From Dysidea avara (Eukaryota; Porifera; Demospongiae; Dictyoceratida; Dysideidae): a DNA stretch of 64,000 nt. The stretch's first letter is position 1; every line of letters begins with the position of its first letter. Below are positions 2,540 through 63,619 of this stretch, one piece after another. The translations under genes were made by a program, and so were the position numbers. The notes beneath the pieces were generated by a model that saw nothing but the letters and a program-made list of their open reading frames with translations, was not told where the DNA came from and searched no databases. The DNA lies in the NCBI RefSeq assembly GCF_963678975.1, contig NC_089274.1:19865133-19929132 (forward strand). The letters are read 5' to 3'.

Positions 2540-3965
2540 ACTGGACGTACACAGAGTGTTGTGTGTGGTGGTTGCACTTCCACCCCCTGTGATGTTTTGA
2601 GTGGTGTCCCACAAGGTTCTGTACTAGGGCCTCTGCTATTTTTTACATACATAAATGATATCAATATGCTACTCATACTACACAGCTATTTGCACAGCCA
2701 CCAAGATGTAGAGTTTCTTTTACTCAAAAGCATTTTAGATCTCAAGCTGCCCACTGGTGGAATGCAGTTCCTAACGACATGTTAATATCTCCAACTTTTC
2801 AGGACGATTTATTTTCTTATTTGTGTAAAATTTGTTGATGAATTTTATGTTTATAAATTATTTGCTTAATTGTTTTGTATGTGCTGTGTGTGTGTTGTAA
2901 TTTTTTGTTCAGTGTTTGTGTGTGTGCAGTTGTAATTTATATGTGTATATGTATGCTATTATTGTGTTTCCTCCTCAGTCAGGGAAGAATGGCATTGCCG
3001 ACTGACTTGAGGCTAATTTAAAAGTCAAATCGATATCACTAACGAATTAAGTTCTATTTGTCGCTTATACGCTGATGACTGCATTCTATATAGGAGAATT
3101 GATAGTTTAACAGATGTTAAAGATTTGCAAGATGATTTACAGATATTGGAGCTATGGGAGAAAAAGTGGAAAGTGTCTTTCAATGTTGACAAATGTGTGG
3201 TTGTATCTATACCTCTTAAACGAAACCCTATATACTCCAGTTACCTGCACCTTCATGGAGAACAACTTACTGTGGTTCAGTGTGCCAAGTACCTGGGAGT
3301 CTCAATTGATTCAAAATTATCTTTTAACCAACATGTGGACAATGTGTGCAAAAAGGAAAACTCTGTATTAAGTTTTGTGAGGAGAAATTTTGCAAACTGC
3401 TCCTGTAAAATCAAAGAATCGACCTGTTTCTTACTTACGTCAAGCCCACAATGGAATATGCAGCTGCAGCATGGGCTCCTTACAGCAGACGGTCAAAAAA
3501 CAAACTTGAGTCTGTGCAAAGATGTGCAGCTCGCTTTGTAATGAATGTTTAATATCAAACCAGCAGTGTATCAAACATGTTATCACGTCTTAACTCGAGC
3601 ACCATTGAAACTCATCTCAAACATTTAAGGCTTCAGATGTTCCATAAAATTATTCATAGCATTGCGGATGTATCACTTCCTGATTATATAGCTCATAGAT
3701 CAAGGTATACCAGAAGCAGTGAACTTAAATTTATACAGCCAGACACAGCTATTGATTCTTATAAATACAGTTTCTTTCCTGCTTCAATTTGATTGTGGAA
3801 CACTCTACCTAGTGATATAAATTGTGACAATATAGATACTTTTAAGGAACTTCTGAAACATATTACATTGTAATTTATTTTTATAGCTTATATTTGTAGC
3901 CTCATGATTTTACATCTATATTGTAATATACTCACCCATATGAGTTCTGCAATAATTATAGTAAG
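2540..3965 (+). mobile_element. Decayed LINE reverse-transcriptase fragment (L2/CR1-like)
   Basis: The segment at 2561-2663 reads as reverse-transcriptase motif B ([14 protein letters not shown], then YINDI). After an inserted block, translation resumes at about 3038 with CRLYADDCILY (motif C, YADD). It then runs through a D/E region containing KYLGVSIDSKLSFNQHVD. The C-terminal tail at 3577-3860 reads DSYKYSFFPASI and is followed by a 3' UTR. The frame is broken several times, so it is a fossil. It lies wholly inside the hAT-like element at 2026-4483 and lacks the endonuclease and first half of the RT. Confidence 0.8.
2664..3031 (+). mobile_element. Truncated LINE 3' end inserted into another LINE
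   Basis: This block interrupts the reverse transcriptase between YINDI and CRLYADD. It is flanked by GATATCA at 2657-2663 and 3032-3038. Its left part reads as a LINE C-terminal tail (a 'WWNAVPNDM' phrase, then a stop). A GT-rich 3' UTR follows, ending GACTTGAGGCTAATTTAAAA. The insert is therefore a 5'-truncated LINE of another family, with a 7-bp target duplication. Confidence 0.7.
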
Positions 3966-4894: not shown

Positions 4895-4937
4895 CGTGTC
4901 GGATCATTATTAGCTAACTCTTTTTTTGACGAAGATA

Positions 4938-5744
4938 ATGATGGAAAATGTGCATAAATGCAAGAACTACTCCAGCGGAGCGCTGAGTGGGAAGTTTAAA
5001 GCTTTAACCTCAATGAAGAGCGCCAAGGCTAAACGAAGGGTCACTTTCCCAGTCAACGTCATGTTGCAACAAGCCATCACTGATGGAGACAAAGAAGAGA
5101 TCAGGAAAATAATCACTAAACACGGCAAGAGTGTCTTGGATCTTAAAGACCCGACTGGAATGCCGCTGTTGCACCGTGCCATCTTTGAGGATCAATTTGA
5201 GTGTTTTGAACTGATGGTAAATGAGGGTGCAGATTTGTTTGCAGCAGACGAGGAAGGATGGAACGCGTTGCACGTGGCTATCTCGTTTGAAGACATGGAC
5301 GCGGTTGAGCTGCTACTCCAACACAAGCCAGAGCTGATCAATACTCGCACCATGGACAGTTTGAGACCGATCAATGTTTGCGAGTCAAACTGTGAACTTT
5401 GTGCTTACCTTCTCCAGGCAGAGGTGAAACATCTGAAAACAAGATCAGTTACACACTGGGATAGTGCCAACTGCAAACGAGAAGAACTAGAACTATTGAA
5501 CATTGTAATGAGAGTGAATGAAGAAGACGAGAGGAGCACTAGACAAGTACGACAAAGTGCCCTACACCTGTCAGCAGCTAAGAACTACCTTGGACTGGCT
5601 TACTACATGTTGGAGAACCAGTTAGTAACAGTAGACTGTGAGGATTATGAACATTGGACGGCACTTCACTTAGCTGCTCTACATTCCAGCATGGACGTGT
5701 TGGTACTACTCATCCAATATGGTGCTAATGTGGATAAAAAATAA
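4938..5744 (+). CDS. Ankyrin-repeat PP1-regulatory-subunit-like protein, copy A (3'-truncated)
   Basis: This single-exon reading frame encodes about 268 residues from the first ATG of an ATG-ATG pair. It encodes the same protein as genes B and C: a lysine/serine-rich N-terminus, then RRVTFP at about residues 33-38 and ankyrin repeats. RVTF fits the PP1 docking consensus, and a docking motif followed by ankyrin repeats is the layout of MYPT/PPP1R12, R16 and R27. Function as a PP1 targeting subunit is inferred. The protein ends at YGANVDKK: after base 5730 the sequence diverges from B into A-rich DNA with stops. The last 28 or so residues of the family, holding the final partial ankyrin repeat, are therefore missing. 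The promoter is intact, so it may be expressed as a short form or be a recent pseudogene. Confidence 0.8.
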   Translation: MMENVHKCKNYSSGALSGKFKALTSMKSAKAKRRVTFPVNVMLQQAITDGDKEEIRKIITKHGKSVLDLKDPTGMPLLHRAIFEDQFECFELMVNEGADLFAADEEGWNALHVAISFEDMDAVELLLQHKPELINTRTMDSLRPINVCESNCELCAYLLQAEVKHLKTRSVTHWDSANCKREELELLNIVMRVNEEDERSTRQVRQSALHLSAAKNYLGLAYYMLENQLVTVDCEDYEHWTALHLAALHSSMDVLVLLIQYGANVDKK

Positions 5745-6405: not shown

Positions 6406-6751
6406 TATATTATTAAACCATTCAATTCACAGAAATCCTCCATGCAAAAAAAAACAGCTTGGCTATAAAAGAGGTGTATCCATGGAAGTAAAATAGAGGC
6501 TGATATCTTAAGCAGCCAAAAATAAATGCTAATACAACCAAGGCCACTTGTTGTTGATTTTATGTTTCAGATCCTCCCACTGCCCAAATTTGGTCATTAT
6601 TGTGACATCATCTCAAAATGGGAAGAATAACTAGATAAGCTGATGACTCAACTCATATTGGGAAGTTCAGACAGCAGGGTAGTGATTAGTAACAGATCAA
6701 AATAATCTAATAGAGCATTCAGCCAGCTCTAATAAAACAGTCACGTGCATA

Positions 6752-7010
6752 TCAAGACACACGGTAGTGTGTCGTGCGGCCGGTGTGTCGTGCGGCCAAG
6801 AAAGCCGGCGACCACACCGTGAGTATATTTACAGGAAGAAAGAAAACAGCCTTTTCACGCATGCATAGCTCCATGGCCTCTTCTCCAAAGCACACTATTT
6901 TTGCATTATAGCTGTCCCCCAGGTAGGGTACGCCACACAGCAAGTTAGACTAAATTCGCAACAGCCATTTGCGAGATATGGGCGTCCAAAATTTCGTTTT
7001 AATTGCTTCG
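6752..7010 (-). mobile_element. Stem-loop-ended element, terminal part (copy 1)
   Basis: Bases 6752-6785 are the reverse complement of the end at 63582-63616. A hairpin with arms ACACAC/GTGTGT and loop GGTA lies at 6757-6772, next to GTGTGTCGTGCGGCC, which is itself locally duplicated. Similarity to 63350-63616 continues inward to about 7010 (CCGTGAGTATATTTACAGGA). The rest of this copy lies at 10561-10910, beyond an inserted retrotransposon. No coding sequence is seen in the element itself. Confidence 0.75.
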
Positions 7011-7061
7011 TTTTTTTCTTCTTATGCCGTACGGGGGGCTACGGCATAAGAAGAAAAAAAC
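7010..7061. repeat. Perfect 22-bp inverted repeat at the 5' junction of the retrotransposon
   Basis: The arms are 7010-7031 (ending CTTCTTATGCCGTA) and 7040-7061 (starting TACGGCATAAGAAG), separated by CGGGGGGC. Another TACGGCATAAGAA follows at 7077-7089. The left arm overlaps the target-like sequence GCTTCGTTTTTTTCTT (7005-7020), which reappears imperfectly as GCTTCGATTTCTTTT at 10561-10575. This structure probably arose by snap-back or template switching during 5'-end integration. Confidence 0.8.
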
Positions 7062-7122
7062 AATTCAATAATTCCCTACGGCATAAGAAATATAACAATT
7101 CCCTTCGATTGTGGGAATCGTA

Positions 7123-9633
7123 ATGGTCGATTCTCTCCCTGGTTTTCCGGAGAGTCGCTCAACTCTGGAGGCCGTCGACATAGTATGTGGGACTTTGCAA
7201 GCGAAGTTGATAACCAAGGAACTGTCCAGTGGCACCAGTCGTTGTGTTCGGCTCAATGGGGACCTTTTGACTCCATGTGACCTTCAACGCAAAGCGGGTA
7301 AAGCTTCTTCTAAGAACTGGAAGACAACCATTCGCTACCAAGACCAGCCCATATCGAAGTTTTTGGTGTCTTATCGTGATGAGATGGGCAGGCGTCGTTG
7401 CCGTTTTGAACCAAATGCGACACTCCAGGCCAGCTCGAGGGCCAGTTTGGATCCGCAGAGTTCAATTCTCCGGGAAGAAAGTCCCTCATCCGTCGCGCAG
7501 GTTGACGAGGAGGAAGAACCTAACGCCCCCTGCTTGACTTCTAACAACTCCAACGACATTCTAATGAACAATTCGTCAGTTGTTGATCTACCTGATTTTC
7601 AACCTGTAGTTCAGCCTAACTTTCAGTGGGGGAATCTTGATGGAAGCTGTTTTATCTCAGAATTGGATAAAGTTTATTTGGAAGTGATACATTGGAAGAA
7701 GAACAGTTTTACAGTTCCACGGGGTTCAGCTGGTAAGGCTTTTGTACTTGAACTGGCTCGTTTGTTTCGTGCTGTAGGTGAGGGTTCTTCCCTGGAATCT
7801 GTCGCCCTTAAGGCAATTGTTGTGGTTTGTATATTACTGCTCCAGAAGCCAAGCCGCACATCTAAGGACAAGGATCACACTCTCCTATTGGAGCAGCGGC
7901 TGAAACAGTGGAAGGATGGGAATCTACTTGAACTGGTTACTGAGGGAGGAGCTATACAGGGTCGTCTCAAGAGCCATTTACCAAAACTAAGTGAGGCACA
8001 ACTTGTACGTAACTTTTCTAAGCTAATGTTTGAGGGTAAAACCAAGGCTGCTTTACGATTGGTCTCAGGTTACCAACGTGGTGGAGTTCTAAACTTGGAT
8101 GAGATAGCTGATTCTGCTTCTCCCGGCCATTGTGTTCGCGATGTTCTGCGGGCTAAACATCCTCCAGCTCAGCCTTTGGATCCTAAGTGTCTTCTACAGC
8201 ATTGGGTTGACCCACCATCCGTACACCCTGTTATATTCTCTTCTCTTAATGCTGCTGTTATCAGGTCTGCTGCTTTGCGAACATCTGGTGCGGCTGGACC
8301 CTCTGGGATTGACGCTCGTGGTTGGCGTCGACTTTGTACCTCATTCCACTCTGCTTCAGGTGAATTGTGTGTTGCAATGTCCTCATTTGCTCGTCGTTTA
8401 TGTACTGTTTTCCTCTCCCCAGATTTGCTCTCGCCTTTTTTGGTGTGTCGCCTCATTGCTTTGGATAAAAATCCTGGGGTGCGGCCTATTGGTGTGTGCG
8501 AGGTTATGAGACATATTGTTGCTAAGGCTGTGCTGGTCATCCTGCGGGATGACATTCAGGAGGCAGCTGGTTCACACCAACTTTGTGCGGGGCAACTTTC
8601 TGGGGCAGAGGCTGCGGTTCATGCTGTCCGAAAGGTTTTTGAGGAAGGAAGCACTGAGGCTGTGTTGCTGGCGGACGCCTCCAATGCCTTTAACTCGCTG
8701 AACCGTTTGGTGGCTCTACACAACATCAGACAACTGTGCCCGCCACTTTCCACTATTCTGATCAATATTTATAGGTCTCCAGCCTCTTTGCTTGTTTCTG
8801 GGGAGGTTATTTTATCAGAGGAGGGTACTACACAGGGAGACCCACTAGCTATGCCTATGTATGCCCTTGCTACAGTGCCTTTAATCAATCAACTTCATGG
8901 GACAGTGGACCAGGTCTGGTATGCTGATGATGCTTGTGCTTGTGGCAGTATACAGGACTTGCTCATCTGGTGGAACCAGCTCTGTATTAAGGGACCTGCT
9001 TTTGGCTATTTTGTGAATGCTCCTAAAACTTGGTTAGTTTCTAAGGAAAGGTTCCATTCAATTGCTACTACTCTGTTCTCAGATACTGATGTTCAAATTA
9101 CTTCCGTGGGCCGTCCCTACCTTGGGGCTGCCATTGGTTCAAACGCTTATGTCCAGGAATTTGTGAGGGACAAGGTTACTGGTTGGTCAGCAGAGGTTAC
9201 ACGGCTTGCCAAGTTCGCACAAGTTCAGCCGCATGCTGCTTATTCCGCTCTCACTCATGGCTTGTCAAGCCATTGGCTCTACCTTTGTCGCACTACTCCA
9301 AACATATCAGAAGCTTTACAACCCCTTGAGGACAACATCCGGCTGGTACTTATCCCTACTTTGATGGGTTGCTCTCCACCAAATGACACAATGCGTAAAT
9401 TATTTGCCCTTCCACCTCGATATGGTGGTTTGGGTATCATAAACCCAACTCTTATTGCAGCTGAGGACTATTCAGCCTCGTGTCACATTACTGAGCCTCT
9501 TTCACAATTCATTCTGGACCGGGGTATCAATTCGCTATTGTTAAAACAGAACAGCTATCTCGCAAGTCCGCAATCCGCAATTCCAAATCTTCCAACTATT
9601 CGGATAGATCTTCCAGTTTGCGTACCCACTTAG
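7123..9633 (+). CDS. Retrotransposon protein: SAND-like domain + reverse transcriptase (836 aa)
   Basis: The first ATG at 7123 is chosen; an upstream in-frame GTG at 7111 is not needed. Residues 20-81 fit the SAND fold signature: VCG at 21-23, RCVRLNG at 40-46, TPCDL at 50-54 and AGKASSKNWKTTIR at 58-71. The last corresponds to the DNA-contacting KDWK motif (here KNWK) of DEAF-1/Sp100/AIRE proteins. A low-complexity linker follows. The reverse transcriptase covers about 350-720: AGPSGIDARGW, motif A LLADASNAF (Asp518), motif B TTQGDPLAMPMYALA (571-585) and motif C YADD (600-603). All three catalytic aspartates are present. The frame ends early at 9633; homologous coding continues in another frame from about 9565, so a one-base indel lies near 9.56 kb. 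Confidence 0.85.
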   Translation: MVDSLPGFPESRSTLEAVDIVCGTLQAKLITKELSSGTSRCVRLNGDLLTPCDLQRKAGKASSKNWKTTIRYQDQPISKFLVSYRDEMGRRRCRFEPNATLQASSRASLDPQSSILREESPSSVAQVDEEEEPNAPCLTSNNSNDILMNNSSVVDLPDFQPVVQPNFQWGNLDGSCFISELDKVYLEVIHWKKNSFTVPRGSAGKAFVLELARLFRAVGEGSSLESVALKAIVVVCILLLQKPSRTSKDKDHTLLLEQRLKQWKDGNLLELVTEGGAIQGRLKSHLPKLSEAQLVRNFSKLMFEGKTKAALRLVSGYQRGGVLNLDEIADSASPGHCVRDVLRAKHPPAQPLDPKCLLQHWVDPPSVHPVIFSSLNAAVIRSAALRTSGAAGPSGIDARGWRRLCTSFHSASGELCVAMSSFARRLCTVFLSPDLLSPFLVCRLIALDKNPGVRPIGVCEVMRHIVAKAVLVILRDDIQEAAGSHQLCAGQLSGAEAAVHAVRKVFEEGSTEAVLLADASNAFNSLNRLVALHNIRQLCPPLSTILINIYRSPASLLVSGEVILSEEGTTQGDPLAMPMYALATVPLINQLHGTVDQVWYADDACACGSIQDLLIWWNQLCIKGPAFGYFVNAPKTWLVSKERFHSIATTLFSDTDVQITSVGRPYLGAAIGSNAYVQEFVRDKVTGWSAEVTRLAKFAQVQPHAAYSALTHGLSSHWLYLCRTTPNISEALQPLEDNIRLVLIPTLMGCSPPNDTMRKLFALPPRYGGLGIINPTLIAAEDYSASCHITEPLSQFILDRGINSLLLKQNSYLASPQSAIPNLPTIRIDLPVCVPT

Positions 9634-10446
9634 ATCCCTCCTCTCAACGCGCTTTAGATCTAGCCTCAGCCAAAGGGGCCTCCAACTGGCTTACCACCCG
9701 GCCCCTACAGGAACATGGCTTTGCACTGCATAAGTCCGCGTTTCACGATGCCGTGGCACTACGTTATGGGTGGTCTCCTCAGCGGACTCCTGCTCACTGT
9801 GCATGTGGGACTTCCTTTTCAGTGGAGCATGCTTTATCCTGTCCCAAGGGTGGCTTACCTTCTATCCGACACAATGAGATCAGAGATCTAACTGCTACCC
9901 TGTTGACTGAAGTATGCTCTCAGGTAGCTGTTGAACCAGAGCTCCAGCCGGTTTCACAGCAGGACTACCCTGCTTCTGCCAATATCCAAGATGGTGCCCG
10001 TCTTGACATCGCCATGAATGGTTTTTGGGGTGGAAAAAGTGAAATGTTTTGTGGATGTGCGGGTGTTCAACCCTCTGGCTGCTTCTAATGCGTCCTCATC
10101 ACTGGCCTCCTGTTATCGGAGGCACGAGAACATTAAGAAACGTGCGTATGCTCAGAGAATTCGTGAGGAGGAACATGCCTCTTTTACCCCCCTGGTAATG
10201 TCTGCCTCTGGTGGTCTAGCTCATGAGGCTTCTGTTTTTTATCAACGCTTGGCTCATCAACTTTCAAACAAGTGGGGCGATGATTACTCTGTTGTCATGG
10301 GGTGGTTAAGGTGCTGTCTATCTTTTTCTCTCTTGCGGTCCTCCATACAATGCATCCGCGGAGCCCGCTCATCCATCGGTCACTATGTTAAGACTCCCCC
10401 AATTGTGGAGCTGATTCGGGCAGAGTCTCAGTTTGCCGTGGACTAA
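9570..10446 (+). pseudogene. C-terminal part of the retrotransposon protein, frame-shifted (CCHC + endonuclease-like)
   Basis: Up to about 10050 the frame reads LASAKGASNWLTTRPLQEHG, a region shared by sponge and coral members of this family as I recall them. It then gives a zinc-knuckle-like CACGTSFSVEHALSC (C-x1-C-x7-H-x3-C). Next is a RLDIA...FVDVRVFNPLA stretch whose spaced acidic residues recall the PD-(D/E)xK-like endonuclease of R2-type LINEs. A second indel near 10.04-10.05 kb returns the reading to the first frame, which runs to the stop at 10444-10446 through AYAQRIREEEHASFTPLV and LRCCLSFSLLRSSIQCIRGA. Only two frame changes and no other stops suggest a young but inactive copy. The endonuclease call is the least certain part. 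Confidence 0.7.
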
Positions 10447-10560
10447 GAAAGTCCCGGTTTGTCCAGCACAGGCCATTTATGTGCTGGGGGTGGTAGGCAA
10501 GGGCAGTCCATCAAGCCCGGGTAAAAAAAACAACTTATAATTATACAGGGGGCTACGGGG

Positions 10561-10910
10561 GCTTCGATTTCTTTTCGCACACTTTGCAAAAATTGCTATA
10601 AAATGCAAACCTGTAACTCGATTGCCTCGATCTTTGGCACAAATTAAGAACGTGTAACGGTGGATTCACGTACCAAGTTTGTTGTAAGTCTGAGTAGTAT
10701 TCAAGGAGTTATGGACGTTTATTCACGTAAAAACAGATCAAACTTCTGTCACGGCTACAGGGTAAACCAAGTATAGAAATAACTTGAAAATTGGTGTGTA
10801 GATAGGCTGATCATCGTAGCAGTGCCTTTTGATAGTTTGAATAAGTTATAAAGTAAAAACTAAGCAAGTGTAAAATCGCGGGATCGAGATACTCTAATAG
10901 AGCAGTCACC
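10561..10910 (-). mobile_element. Stem-loop-ended element, second half of copy 1
   Basis: This resumes the element interrupted at 7010. CTTTTCGCACACTTTGCAAA and the following bases match the reverse complement of about 63300-63350. It ends at 10882-10909 with the GATCGAGATACTCTAATAGA motif, as the 62.8-kb copy does at its opposite terminus. Copies 1 and 2 thus share both boundaries. No open reading frame is seen. Confidence 0.65.
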
Positions 10911-11372: not shown

Positions 11373-11645
11373 ATCCACACAAAAACAGCCAAGCTGTGAA
11401 AAAATGGTGCGGCCTTAAAAAGCCTGGGTGAAAAAAGTTGTGAAATCAAAGGTGGCGGCCAAGAAATGGCTGCAATGATGTTAATGCTAAAAATTTTAAT
11501 AATGGCTGTGTGCATTGTTAAAATTTATTAGCATTAACATCATTGCAGCCATTTCTTGGCCGCCACCTTTGATTTCACAACTTTTTTCACCCAGGCTTTT
11601 TAAGGCCGCACCATTTTTTCACAGCTTGGCTGTTTTTGTGTGGAT
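11373..11645. mobile_element. Palindromic MITE, copy 1
   Basis: Long near-perfect arms begin ATCCACACAAAAACAGCC and end with the inverse, GGCTGTTTTTGTGTGGAT. They run through CAGCCAAGCTGTGAAAAAA, TGCGGCC, GTGGCGGCCAAGAAATGGCT and GATGTTAATGCTAA, with a centre near 11510. The core words recur in the palindromes at 38.2, 59.4 and 63.6 kb. Open frames here are only mirror reads of the arms. The superfamily is unknown. Confidence 0.85.
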
Positions 11646-13269: not shown

Positions 13270-13903
13270 AAATCCCATCCAAAAACAGCTTATAGCTGTA
13301 AAAAAAGTGCGCGTCCAAGCAAAGCAGAGTTAACTGCGACAAAAAGTAATGATATCATAATGTGGCCATGTGCGAGGTGTGCAAGTTGTAAAATTAATAT
13401 TAGCTAATCAGATAATACAATGTTATTGTTAAAGTGTTAATGAGAACTATGTGATGCTGCTAGTTTTTAAGTGTGTGAGCATCTTCATAAATGCCACATA
13501 AATTTAATTCTCAATAAAGCAATGTGTATAGATTCTCTGATAGTAATAAATAGTTTGAGTTTGGCCACCTTTCCTTTGTTTGTAGCATTGCTGTATACAG
13601 GAAAGGCGGCCAAACTCAAACTATTTATTACTATCAGAGAATCTATACACATTGCTTTATTGAGAATTAAATTTATGTGGCATTTATGAAGATGCTCACA
13701 CACTTAAAAACTAGCAGCATCACATAGTTCTCATTAACACTTTAACAATAACATTGTATTATCTGATTAGCTAATATTAATTTTACAACTTGCACACCTC
13801 GCACATGGCCGCATTATGATATCATTACTTTTTGTCGCAGTTAACTCTGCTTTACTTGGACGCGCACTTTTTTACAGCTATAAGCTGTTTTTGGATGGGA
13901 TTT
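13270..13903. mobile_element. Very young 634-bp palindromic element
   Basis: The sequence from AAATCCCATCCAAAAACAGC to GCTGTTTTTGGATGGGATTT is one palindrome centred near 13587. Its arms of about 300 bp differ at only a few bases. The central loop is about 30 bases (between GGCCACCTTT and AAAGGCGGCC). The outer words CAAAAACAGC and AGCTGTAAAAAA relate it distantly to the 11.4-kb palindrome family. The mirror-image 72-codon frames on both strands are a trivial product of the symmetry. Confidence 0.9.
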
Positions 13904-35215: not shown

Positions 35216-36115
35216 ATGATGGAAAATGTGCATAAATGCAAGAACTACTCCAGCGGAGCGCTGAGTGGGAAGTTTAAAGCTTTAACCTCAATGAAGAGCG
35301 CCAAGGCTAAACGAAGGGTCACTTTCCCAGTCAACGTCATGTTGCAACAAGCCATCACTGATGGAGACAAAGAAGAGATCAAGAAAATAATCACCAAACA
35401 CGGCAAGAGTGTCTTGGATCTTAAAGACCCGACTGGAATGCCGCTGTTGCACCGTGCCATCTTTGAGGATCAATTTGAGTGTTTTGAACTGATGGTAAAT
35501 GAGGGTGCAGATTTGCTTGCAGCAGACGAGGAAGGATGGAACGCGTTGCACGTGGCTATCTCGTTTGAAGACATGGACGCGGTTGAGCTGCTACTCCAAC
35601 ACAAGCCAGAGCTGATCAATACTCGCACCATGGACAGTTTGAGACCGATCAATGTTTGCGAGTCAAATTGTGACTTTTGTGCTTACCTTCTCCAAGCAGA
35701 GGTGAAACATCTGAAAACAAGATCAGTCACACACTGGGATAGTGCCAACTGCAAACGAGAAGAACTAGAACTATTGAACATTGTAATGAGAGTGAATGAA
35801 GAAGACAAGAGGAGCACTAGACAAGTACGACAAAGTGCCCTACACCTGTCAGCAGCTAAGAACTACCTTGGACTGGCTTACTACATGTTGGAAAACCAGT
35901 TAGTAACAGTAGACTGTGAGGATTATGAACATTGGACAGCACTTCACTTAGCTGCTCTACATTCCAGCATGGACGTGTTAGTACTACTCATCCAATATGG
36001 TGCTAATGTGGAGAAGTTGACCAGTTGTTACAAGAGCCCAGTTGATCTGGCTGATGATGAACTGACCTTAGAGTTCTTGAAGCGAGGTTCTGAATATATT
36101 GAACAAGTAGTGTAA
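35216..36115 (+). CDS. Ankyrin-repeat PP1-regulatory-subunit-like protein, copy B (299 aa, intact)
   Basis: This is an intact single-exon gene. The N-terminus is short and basic. RVTF at residues 34-37 is followed directly by FPVNVMLQQAITDGDKEEI, the same docking-motif-then-helix layout as MYPT/PPP1R27 proteins, which recruit PP1 catalytic subunits. Ankyrin repeats lie at about 70-100 (GMPLLHRAI...GADLLA), 103-133 (GWNALHVAISFEDMDAVELL), a degenerate one at 134-165, 208-237 (SALHLSAA) and 242-275 (HWTALHLAALHSSMDVLVLL). There is a final half repeat, SPVDLADDELTLEFLKRG. No signal peptide or membrane segment is seen. PP1 binding is inferred from the motif only; RVxF motifs are short and can arise by chance. 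CDFC at about 155 is a private change; A and C have CELC. Confidence 0.9.
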   Translation: MMENVHKCKNYSSGALSGKFKALTSMKSAKAKRRVTFPVNVMLQQAITDGDKEEIKKIITKHGKSVLDLKDPTGMPLLHRAIFEDQFECFELMVNEGADLLAADEEGWNALHVAISFEDMDAVELLLQHKPELINTRTMDSLRPINVCESNCDFCAYLLQAEVKHLKTRSVTHWDSANCKREELELLNIVMRVNEEDKRSTRQVRQSALHLSAAKNYLGLAYYMLENQLVTVDCEDYEHWTALHLAALHSSMDVLVLLIQYGANVEKLTSCYKSPVDLADDELTLEFLKRGSEYIEQVV

Positions 36116-38230: not shown

Positions 38231-38912
38231 CTAATCCAAAATAGCCAAGCTGTAAAAAATAGGGTGCAGCCCCCAAAAAAAGCCATGGTGAAAAAAGATG
38301 TGAAACCCAAGGTGGTGGCCAAGAAATGGCTGTGATGGTAGGTTAATGGTAAACATTTTAATGGCAACAATTCACGTTAATTCGGTGCGACTTAGTCTTG
38401 GTACCAAATTCACCTGAATTGTTGTTATTAAAATTTTTACCATTAACCTACCATTACAGCCATTGCTTGGCCGCCACCTTGGATTTCACATCTTTTTTCA
38501 CCATGGCTTTTTGGGGGGCTGCACCCTATTTTTACAGCTTGGCGTATTTGTATACACCAAAGTGGGACTTTTTTTACCTGTCTGTTTCTTTACCACAGAA
38601 AGAAGAAAAAGAGTTAAAGTAGATTTTTAATACTTGAACTAATTTTGATTTTTTATCAATAATTATGCACATTTTGAATATTTATTAGCTACATGCTAAT
38701 TCTTCTCTGCAGGATAACTGGATTGCAGCTGATCTATCTACCAGCTGACTTGAAATGTAGCCAAACTCTCCACAGGGTGACTTGTTTGTGTCTACAGGTG
38801 TCTTGTTTGTAGCTGAACTCTCTACAGGGTTATTTGTTTGTAGTTGAACTTTCTACAAGGTGATTTGTTTGTAGTTGAACTCTCTACAAGGTGATTTGAT
38901 CTCTCTACCAAT
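38231..38912. mobile_element. Palindrome-plus-minisatellite composite element, short copy
   Basis: A palindrome at 38233-38545 (CTAATCCAAAATAGCCAAGC to GCTTGG.GTATTTG) is followed by about 200 bp of flank with a GAAGAAAAAGAGTTAAAG stretch. Four minisatellite units of the TGAACTCTCTACAGGGTGAT type follow at 38775-38905. The paralogous sequence after gene C (54090-54160) passes from the CACAGTGTATCC anchor to the TAGGCACAT anchor without any of this. The whole 0.68 kb therefore came and went as a unit. The long version is at 59.4-62.8 kb. Confidence 0.75.
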
Positions 38913-51600: not shown

Positions 51601-52491
51601 ATGGCTGAAACTGTATTTAAATGCAAGGGCTACTCCAGTGGACTGCTGAGTGGAAAGCTTAAAGCTTTAGCCTATAACAAGGCTAAACGAAGGGTTACCT
51701 TCCCTGTGAACGTCATGCTGCAACAAGCCATCACTGATGGAGACAAGGAAGAGATCAAGAAAATAATCACCAAACACGGCAAGAGTGTCTTGGATCTTAA
51801 AGACCCGACTGGAATGCCGCTGTTGCACCGTGCCATCTTTGAAGATCAATTTGAGTGTTTTGAACTGATGGTAAATGAGGGTGCAGATTTGCTTGCAGCA
51901 GACGAGGAAGGATGGAACGCGCTGCACGTTGCCGTCTCGTTTGAAGACATGGACGCAGTTGAGCTGCTACTCCAGCACAAGCCAGAACTTATCAATACTC
52001 GCACCATGGACAGTTTGAGACCAATCAATATTTGCGAGTCAAACTGTGAACTTTGTGCTTACCTTCTCCAAGCAGAGGTGAAACATCTGAAAACAAGATC
52101 AGTCATACACTGGGATAGTGCCAACTGCAAACAAGAAGAACTAGAACTATTGAACATTGTAATGAGAGTGAATGAAGAGGATGAGAGGATCACTAGACAA
52201 GTACGACAAAGTGCCCTACACCTGTCAGCAGCTAAGAACTACCTTGGACTGGCTTACTACATGTTGGAGAACCAGTTAGTAACAGTAGACTGTGAGGATT
52301 ATGAACATTGGACGGCACTTCACTTAGCTGCTCTACATTCCAGCATGGACGTGTTAGTACTACTCATCCAATATGGTGCTAATGTGGAGAAGTTGACCAG
52401 TTTTTACAAGAGCCCAGTTGATCTGGCTGATAATGAACTGATCTTAGAGTTCTTGAGACGAGGCTCTGAATACATTGAACAAGCTGTGTAA
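51601..52491 (+). CDS. Ankyrin-repeat PP1-regulatory-subunit-like protein, copy C (296 aa, intact)
   Basis: This is an intact single-exon paralogue of B. It starts MAETVFKCKGYSSGLLSGKL, so its first 30 residues are diverged and three residues shorter. RRVTFP then follows at about residues 30-35, and the rest is nearly identical, with the same ankyrin repeats and an intact C-terminus (SPVDLADNELILEFLRRG). Private changes include ICESN, SVIHWD, CKQEE and ERITRQ. The internal coding identity is much higher than that of the UTRs or promoter, which suggests gene conversion or strong constraint. As with B, a PP1 targeting role in the cytoplasm is inferred from the RVxF-plus-ankyrin layout. Confidence 0.9.
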   Translation: MAETVFKCKGYSSGLLSGKLKALAYNKAKRRVTFPVNVMLQQAITDGDKEEIKKIITKHGKSVLDLKDPTGMPLLHRAIFEDQFECFELMVNEGADLLAADEEGWNALHVAVSFEDMDAVELLLQHKPELINTRTMDSLRPINICESNCELCAYLLQAEVKHLKTRSVIHWDSANCKQEELELLNIVMRVNEEDERITRQVRQSALHLSAAKNYLGLAYYMLENQLVTVDCEDYEHWTALHLAALHSSMDVLVLLIQYGANVEKLTSFYKSPVDLADNELILEFLRRGSEYIEQAV

Positions 52492-62784: not shown

Positions 62785-63616
62785 GCCGAATGCTCTATTA
62801 GGGTGACTGTTCTATTAGAGTATCTCGATCTCGCATTTGCTACACGCAGTTGGCTTTCGAATCATAACTCAGTGGTTTGTAATCCGATTCTTCTGTACTA
62901 CTGCAAGAACTTTCTATGAAGATTATTCCAGCTATGCACCGATTTTCAGCTCATTGCTCTAAGCGGTTTGCCTAGTAGGCGTGAAAACTAATACTTTTTT
63001 ATTCATAAAAATCGATCGCGTAATTGTGACACAGGTTGGGTTTTGTGTCATATCTCCGTGGTCTTTATCTCGATTCCTTTCAAACCACCAAAAGGCACTC
63101 CTACGATGGTTACTCCATCTACATAGCAATTTGCAACTCATTCCATGAAGCGGTTTACCCTGTAGGCGTGACAACAAATCGATCTTTTTTTACGCGAATA
63201 ATCGGTCATAACTCCTGAACCATTCATCGGATTTGTACCAAATTTGATGCTAGGATTCGCCTTTGGACTCCCTTTCTGTGTGCCAAAGTTCAAGGCGATC
63301 GGAGCACGCGTTTGCTTGTTATAGCAATTTTTGCAAGTGTGCGAAAAGACGAAGAAGAAGAAGAAAAAAAACGAAGGAAAAAAAACGAAACTTTGGCAGC
63401 TCGTATCTCGGAAATGGCTGGAGCGATTTCCTTCAAATTTGGAATGTAGACTCCCTTGGCTGGCGGGCAACTGTGTAGCAAATTTGGTTCCAATCAGATA
63501 AGTGATCACCGAGATACAAAGGTGTGAAAATGACGTTTTCGTTCTTCCTGTCAATATACTCACGGGTGTGGCGCGCCGGCTTCTTGGGCCGCACGACACA
63601 CTACCGTGTGTCTTGA
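62785..63616 (+). mobile_element. Stem-loop-ended element (copy 2)
   Basis: The left boundary carries GTTCTATTAGAGTATCTCGA (62810-62829). The right boundary is GGGCCGCACGACACAC, TACC, GTGTGTCTTGA (63586-63616) with a 7-bp hairpin at 63595-63612. The interior repeatedly uses words such as ATAACTC and CGAT..C, with a GAAGAAGAAGAAG run at 63347-63390. At the corresponding GAA/TTC tract, copy 1 received the SAND retrotransposon. No coding sequence was found. A non-autonomous Helitron-like element is possible but the expected CTRR end is missing. Confidence 0.65.
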
Positions 63617-63619
63617 TAT

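Follow-up and report, generated by a model that had tools for sequence, protein, structure and literature searches.

A predicted SAND domain at the N-terminus of non-LTR retrotransposons in the sponge Dysidea avara

The choice of landing site by retrotransposons is understood in few lineages, and one locus in the sponge Dysidea avara raises the question anew. In a stretch of 64,000 nucleotides (the window; NCBI RefSeq assembly GCF_963678975.1, contig NC_089274.1, forward-strand positions 19,865,133–19,929,132), the original prediction placed at 7123–10446 a non-long terminal repeat (non-LTR) retrotransposon whose protein would begin with a SAND-like DNA-binding domain, directly in frame with a complete reverse transcriptase (RT). 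Is the SAND domain part of the element, and what would it do there? Sequence comparison of copies across the genome establishes a conserved architecture, tails rich in A, duplicated target DNA at some copies and the lack of a shared target. We consider it fairly probable that the window holds a damaged copy of a young family with the order SAND, linker, RT, CCHC zinc knuckle and restriction-like endonuclease (RLE), in which the SAND domain serves targeting, the N-terminus is replaceable and SAND modules have passed between two element clades. Targeting by the SAND domain, the 'different targeting solution' of the original prediction, is what we infer by analogy.

The window element and its insertion

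The window copy contains an open frame of 845 codons (7096–9633, ATG at 7123), against a longest stop-free run of 202 codons in 300 same-base shuffles. Near its start, a Pfam profile search identified a SAND domain (7171–7362, plus strand as are all parts of the element; residues 17–80 from the ATG) with PF01342 at E = 1.4e-12 and 47.5 bits (cut-off 22), which upholds the predicted N-terminal SAND. The closest solved structures were SP140 (E = 1e-4), 1ufn and GMEB1 (both 1.3e-4). The core motif of SAND domains is named KDWK; at this position the element SANDs carry KNWK or RNWK, and SP140 likewise has KNW. An AlphaFold2 single-sequence model of residues 1–101 was poor, with a mean predicted local distance difference test score (pLDDT) of 39.

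Downstream of the SAND lie an acidic, Ser-rich and fast-evolving linker (7363–7587), an aligned, conserved block (7588–8472) common to the SAND, PHD and Cys-rich families described below from an LPxF motif onward, and the RT (8473–9039, residues 451–639). The RT is in frame with the SAND and has the motifs TQGDPLA and YADD, as predicted; its Pfam RVT_1 (PF00078) score is 27.4 bits, just below the cut-off of 29.6. Among relatives, L002 passes with 32.1 bits, and L028 (25.2) and L055 (21.7) stay below. A post-RT region (9040–9633) follows, in which a frameshift closes the frame early at 9633; L002 is unbroken here. The CCHC knuckle (C-x-C-x7-H-x3-C in translation, 9798–9842) and the RLE region with the end of the reading frame (9867–10446, stop at 10444–10446) lie in other frames (9495–10088 and 10018–10446) than SAND and RT, and a second frameshift falls within the frame overlap at 10018–10088. 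The stretch 7123–10446 is a single element copy with two frameshifts, rather than one open frame; the CCHC motif and endonuclease-like region foreseen behind the RT are thus present, although not in one frame with it in this copy. In the endonuclease-region alignment, the C, C, H and C of the knuckle are invariant, as are the RLE residues RH, D, D, K and Y across six aligned sequences; the knuckle spacing and the second K of KX2KY deviate from the described RLE pattern. Searched alone against the PDB, the endonuclease part gave no profile match, just designed helical repeat proteins (best E = 0.018), and NCBIfam, applied to four proteins, showed three with weak similarity to group II intron RTs, plus one chance-like match.

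The flanks of the window copy match two adjoining parts of one dispersed repeat. Its left half (6749–7023) is 71% identical to 63619–63358 and its right half (10562–10841) aligns to 63354–63079, both on the minus strand, and flank alignments identify 63079–63619 (minus strand) as a copy of the repeat without the element. Because the flanks adjoin in this empty copy, the SAND-coding DNA lies inside the inserted unit. The element starts with a very short leader (7105–7122), reading (A)nACTCGATTGTGGGAATCGTA before the ATG in most 5'-complete copies, and closes with a 3' untranslated region (10447–10522), common to all 26 copies with a located 3' end, and a poly(A) tail (10523–10530) of 8 A, which reaches about 33 elsewhere. 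The junction sits in a CTT-rich tract. Next to the element proper, about 80 nt on the left and about 30 nt on the right find no match in the empty copy, which leaves the exact target of the window copy uncertain. A 15-nt repeat (7030–7044 and 10544–10558) was rejected as a target duplication and assigned to flanking DNA, since other copies place the ends at about 7105 and about 10530.

Close to the 5' junction, though not part of the element proper, is an inverted repeat (7002–7069; arms 7002–7031 and 7040–7069, 90%). Two further copies (L007 and L016) have inverted repeats directly at the 5' junction; that of L007 extends over part of the 5' end of the element itself and looks as though the newly made strand had folded back or changed templates at integration.

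Families with SAND, PHD and Cys-rich N-termini

We searched the genome (550.8 Mb in 108 contigs) with the window protein, scoring 54 of 2056 candidates, and obtained at least 57 match rows, of which those of family A, to which the window copy belongs, are 86–98% identical to it. Measured against one reference copy, 13 of 28 family A loci start within 13 nt of the 5' end (L001, which is the window copy, L002–L008, L010, L011, L016, L026 and L029) and 15 are 5'-truncated. All 13 of the 5'-complete copies have a SAND match, in two pieces in L029, and six (L002–L006 and L008) retain one unbroken frame of 1114–1179 codons from SAND through RT to endonuclease. With these frames, the knuckle and the RLE residues, the predicted long interspersed nuclear element (LINE) with a C-terminal restriction-like endonuclease is borne out. 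Family A copies have about 20 nt of leader before the ATG and about 75 nt of 3' untranslated region, and every readable 3' end (26 of 26, from 28 loci) has an A-rich tail. Target duplications of 8–18 bp flank five of the 13 5'-complete copies (L002, L005, L006, L008 and L011), including one found by eye (L008) and one with about 18 extra nt in front of the element (L011); in the other eight they are absent or unclear, the window copy being unclear. No shared motif was visible in 26 family A 3' flanks, some of which sit in copies of the same repeats, and the common insertion-site sequence that the original prediction had thought worth seeking did not emerge from them. On these comparisons, the window element is best described as one damaged member of a young family of non-LTR retrotransposons.

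SAND domains also open the proteins of family B (L028, 59% identical to the window protein), family C (L055, 53–55%) and family D (L032), and those in other element families score 44.7–64.8 bits (cut-off 22). Families A–D belong to what we term clade I. A very distant clade II (L052, L053, L054 and L041) combines a SAND domain with a long Pro/Ser-rich stretch with repeats, an RT with YLDD and a CCHC/endonuclease-like C-terminus; its C2H2 matches (19.7 and 17.5 bits) are below the cut-off of 25.2. L052 is one open frame of 1414 codons, and the L053 frame stops before the endonuclease region. Wherever the N-terminus of a clade II locus could be read (L035, L036, L052, L053 and L054), it carries SAND.

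The association extends through the genome, where a SAND search yielded 107 hits from 132 candidates, all scored. For 63 of the 107 hits, a listed RT overlaps or follows within 6 kb on the same strand; it lies upstream for one and on the other strand for none. The downstream count rises to 67 once L053, whose RT place is not in the list, and L043, L045 and L048, which show an RT when read directly, are added. Six of the remaining 40 hits were read directly and 34 are unread. The best SAND match in the genome (L031, 83.8 bits, in a 409-codon frame) has no RT within a 1.5-kb flank and is likely a host SAND gene, which we take to be 'DEAF1-like'; DEAF-1 is a SAND protein. A short RT piece lies about 4.4 kb behind the SAND of L050 (outside the 67 counted), no RT was found in about 5 kb behind the SAND of L047 and L051, and just 1.5 kb behind the SAND was read in L039 and L040. 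Beyond this genome, no relatives were found in viral contigs, prokaryote genome contigs or plasmids, a search that did not cover other animals; a phage collection gave six weak matches (E = 0.09–0.9) to single-stranded-RNA-phage polymerases and an integrase.

Between families A, B and C, the proportion of nonsynonymous differences (pN) is 0.20–0.26 in the SAND, 0.21–0.24 in the RT and 0.46–0.50 in the adjoining linker, synonymous sites being saturated or nearly so. By this measure, the SAND is as constrained as the RT between families and the linker is not. Profile and alignment agree that the N-terminus is a real, conserved SAND domain.

A family D search also returned relatives with long frames, many of 975–1061 codons, that match only 3' of the SAND. 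We read six such loci, one of which (L058) is cut before its N-terminus. SAND is absent from L056, L057, L059 and L061, which share the same RT and endonuclease. In its place, L057 and L061 have a PHD finger above the Pfam cut-off of 24 (29.4 and 36.7 bits), L056 has one that passes the cut-off when the N-terminal piece is searched by itself (26.1 bits) but not within the whole protein (22.5 bits), and L059 has a Cys-rich motif, CRCSRTGRCRNCVCCKQGRQCVNCLPGRLGTC, without a Pfam match, found partly also in its copy L060. The best solved match of the sister-family PHD is DIDO1 (E = 8.8e-6), whose PHD finger reads H3K4me3. The original prediction had held that RT relatives without this N-terminus would betray a chance join. 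Such relatives exist, but they are no sign of one, because other modules occupy the same place and the SAND is conserved across families.

In a genome search for PHD (150 of 1909 candidates scored), 8 of 149 listed hits, counted by reading the list, lie within 2 kb upstream of listed RT places. Some PHD hits fall in long frames of equal length at separate places, 1196 codons at C3:25334515 and C4:36563031 and 660 codons at C12:4618, C15:5982857 and C15:12993233, possibly further PHD-bearing mobile-element families.

A tree built from the sequence that follows the module (10 rows and 957 columns, of which L032 fills 41%) unites SAND families A–D in one clade (support 100/99), requires two module changes and rejects a single group of PHD families (approximately unbiased test, p-AU 0.0185); counts of module changes cannot separate gain from loss.

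Origin and role of the SAND domain

The SAND domains of the two clades are more alike than their RTs. SAND identity is 45–56% between clades I and II, 54–66% within clade I and 51% within clade II, and the corresponding RT values are 28–33%, 63–70% and 74%; the endonuclease region is 22–25% identical between clades, with only L052 compared because the L053 frame ends before that region. With SAND closer than RT across clades, the module may have moved between elements, and the distances suggest that it did so after the RTs had diverged, probably between clade I and the distant clade with SAND and finger-like matches. Element SANDs also cluster apart (93/95) from host-like and PDB SANDs, which are 29–44% identical to them. 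The exchange of domains between animal SAND proteins and mobile elements raised in the original prediction found no backing here: the distances favour exchange between elements, and L031 is only 29–40% identical to the element SANDs.

Several points weigh against this reading, and the first group concerns descent. Clade I falls on one side of a SAND-tree branch supported at just 76/88, and the same tree does not reject holding clade II together (p = 0.355). The clade II loci were located through a SAND match, so members free of SAND would escape. A shorter RT tree with partial rows places families A and B nearer to the PHD and Cys-rich families than to C and D (87/94). A SAND that arose twice within clade I, as that tree would have it, is unsupported by the longer post-module alignment, which we trust more. 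The SAND tree, which does not reject separate clades, would suit vertical descent, with SAND ancestral to both clades and replaced by PHD or Cys-rich modules in some clade I lineages, an account further favoured by the single clade of SAND families within clade I and by the SAND in every readable clade II N-terminus, albeit among loci found by it. We nevertheless think vertical descent rather improbable: within clades the SAND is not slower than the RT, yet across them it is 45–56% against 28–33% identical. The trees themselves leave transfer between clades undecided.

The second group concerns function. Within family A the SAND shows no advantage in conservation over the linker: between L002 and the damaged L011, pN is 0.033 for SAND, 0.042 for linker and 0.010 for RT, with 0.067 for the proportion of synonymous differences (pS), from few sites. 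What the SAND does is judged here from sequence alone, together with a poor fold model (mean pLDDT 39). SAND domains favour CpG-containing motifs, and the 50 nt beside the 3' junctions of 26 family A copies (L002–L025, L027 and the window copy) are rich in CpG (79 against a mean of 52 per such window, p = 5e-5; p = 0.002 without L007 and L020), an excess that would suit a CpG-favouring SAND domain. Beside the 5' junctions it is less marked (p = 0.097, 28 copies), and the test was post hoc, on family A alone without a SAND-free control, with several flanks sharing repeats.

A functional SAND could, rather than serve targeting, act in expression control or escape from silencing by binding host chromatin factors or the element's own RNA or DNA leader. 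The leader of only about 20 nt and the insertion sites without a shared sequence speak for such a role; conservation proves function but not which function, and replacement by PHD in sister families is compatible with any chromatin role. We regard this alternative as unlikely, since the CpG excess beside insertions would fit DNA binding and the zinc-finger/Myb part of R2 is counted as nucleic-acid-binding in the available part of PMC5678591.

That an ordinary retrotransposon landed next to a SAND exon of the host, by a chance join or through an artefact of assembly, is refuted, and its probability practically nil: sister RT families do lack SAND, but 13 copies at separate places, all with SAND, start within 13 nt of the same point before it, the empty site puts it within the inserted unit, and it is conserved between several SAND families.

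Returning to SAND-directed targeting, the steps may be pictured by analogy with R2, as set out in the available parts of PMC5678591 and PMC4640811: the endonuclease would nick target DNA, and from this nick the RT would begin to copy the RNA with its poly(A) tail, in target-primed reverse transcription. The SAND would hold the protein on target DNA or chromatin, replacing the zinc-finger/Myb N-terminus of R2-type elements. The N-terminal module would be interchangeable, with a PHD finger or Cys-rich motif in sister families, and the PHD may read histone H3, as that of DIDO1 does. A more far-reaching proposal, which we put forward tentatively and hold to be somewhat short of an even bet, is a cassette: one RT–endonuclease chassis would carry an exchangeable SAND, PHD or Cys-rich head across clades with about 30% RT identity, each head leading to different chromatin. 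A constant catalytic chassis with a changing head would amount to a natural domain-swap experiment, and insertion maps of SAND, PHD and Cys-rich elements in one genome would reveal the module's role. It also becomes testable whether element SAND and PHD modules were taken from, or given to, host regulators.

Elsewhere in the window, three related ankyrin-type genes (4926–5744, 35216–36115 and 51601–52491; ankyrin repeats checked in the second only) are a recent duplication, the first sharing 98% and 96% DNA identity with the others across more than 700 bp. A piece of another LINE-like RT lies at 3017–3541 (RVT_1 24.7 bits, below the cut-off of 29.6). Long, near-perfect hairpins at 11373–11645 (95.6% self-complementary) and 13270–13903 (97%) are likely foldback or miniature inverted-repeat transposable elements, and relatives of the former occur near 38238, 59388 and 63619. 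Rfam and tRNA scans of the window returned nothing.

Comparison with known systems

An RT with YADD, a CCHC knuckle and RLE residues mark the elements as RLE-type non-LTR retrotransposons, and A-rich 3' ends, variable 5' truncation, duplications and an empty site are marks of target-primed insertion. In the available part of PMC5678591, N-terminal zinc fingers and Myb domains are described among early-branching LINEs, the corresponding part of R2 is a separate globular domain among its nucleic-acid-binding parts, and RH, D, D and KX2KY are given as RLE active-site residues. Like R2 and other RLE elements as presented there, those of D. avara have a single open reading frame with RT, CCHC knuckle and a C-terminal RLE with RH, D, D and KX2KY-like residues. 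They differ from R2-type elements in having a SAND, PHD or Cys-rich motif instead of zinc fingers or Myb, in lacking a fixed target site and in knuckle spacing (CX1CX7HX3C, against CX2-3CX7-8HX4C). Pfam found just SAND and RT, and no N-terminal zinc finger or Myb, in L002, L028 and L055, and the match to R2 proteins in the PDB was non-significant (E = 0.27–0.36).

No description of a SAND-headed RLE retrotransposon was found in the literature searched, to which neither Repbase nor the majority of subscription journals belonged; the SAND–RT architecture may well already have come up in automatic annotation. As judged by alignment, the conserved N-terminal design in RLE retrotransposons is real, and it was not met in that literature.

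Among cellular proteins, SP140, SP100 and GMEB1 share the SAND domain, three PDB SANDs being 29–44% identical to those of the elements; unlike the elements, they are regulators without an RT, and the element SANDs group apart. The PHD finger of DIDO1 is the nearest solved relative of the sister-family PHD. Among mobile elements, the HERO clade, likened here by its description in the available part of PMC4640811 and not by sequence, likewise comprises RLE elements with many non-specific families. A precedent for added host-like domains there is in Utopia and NeSL variants, which also carry extra N-terminal domains, an Ulp1-like protease or RNase H, upstream of the RT; the added domains of Utopia and NeSL are enzymes, whereas the module in D. 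avara would be of a DNA- or chromatin-binding type that alternates between families.

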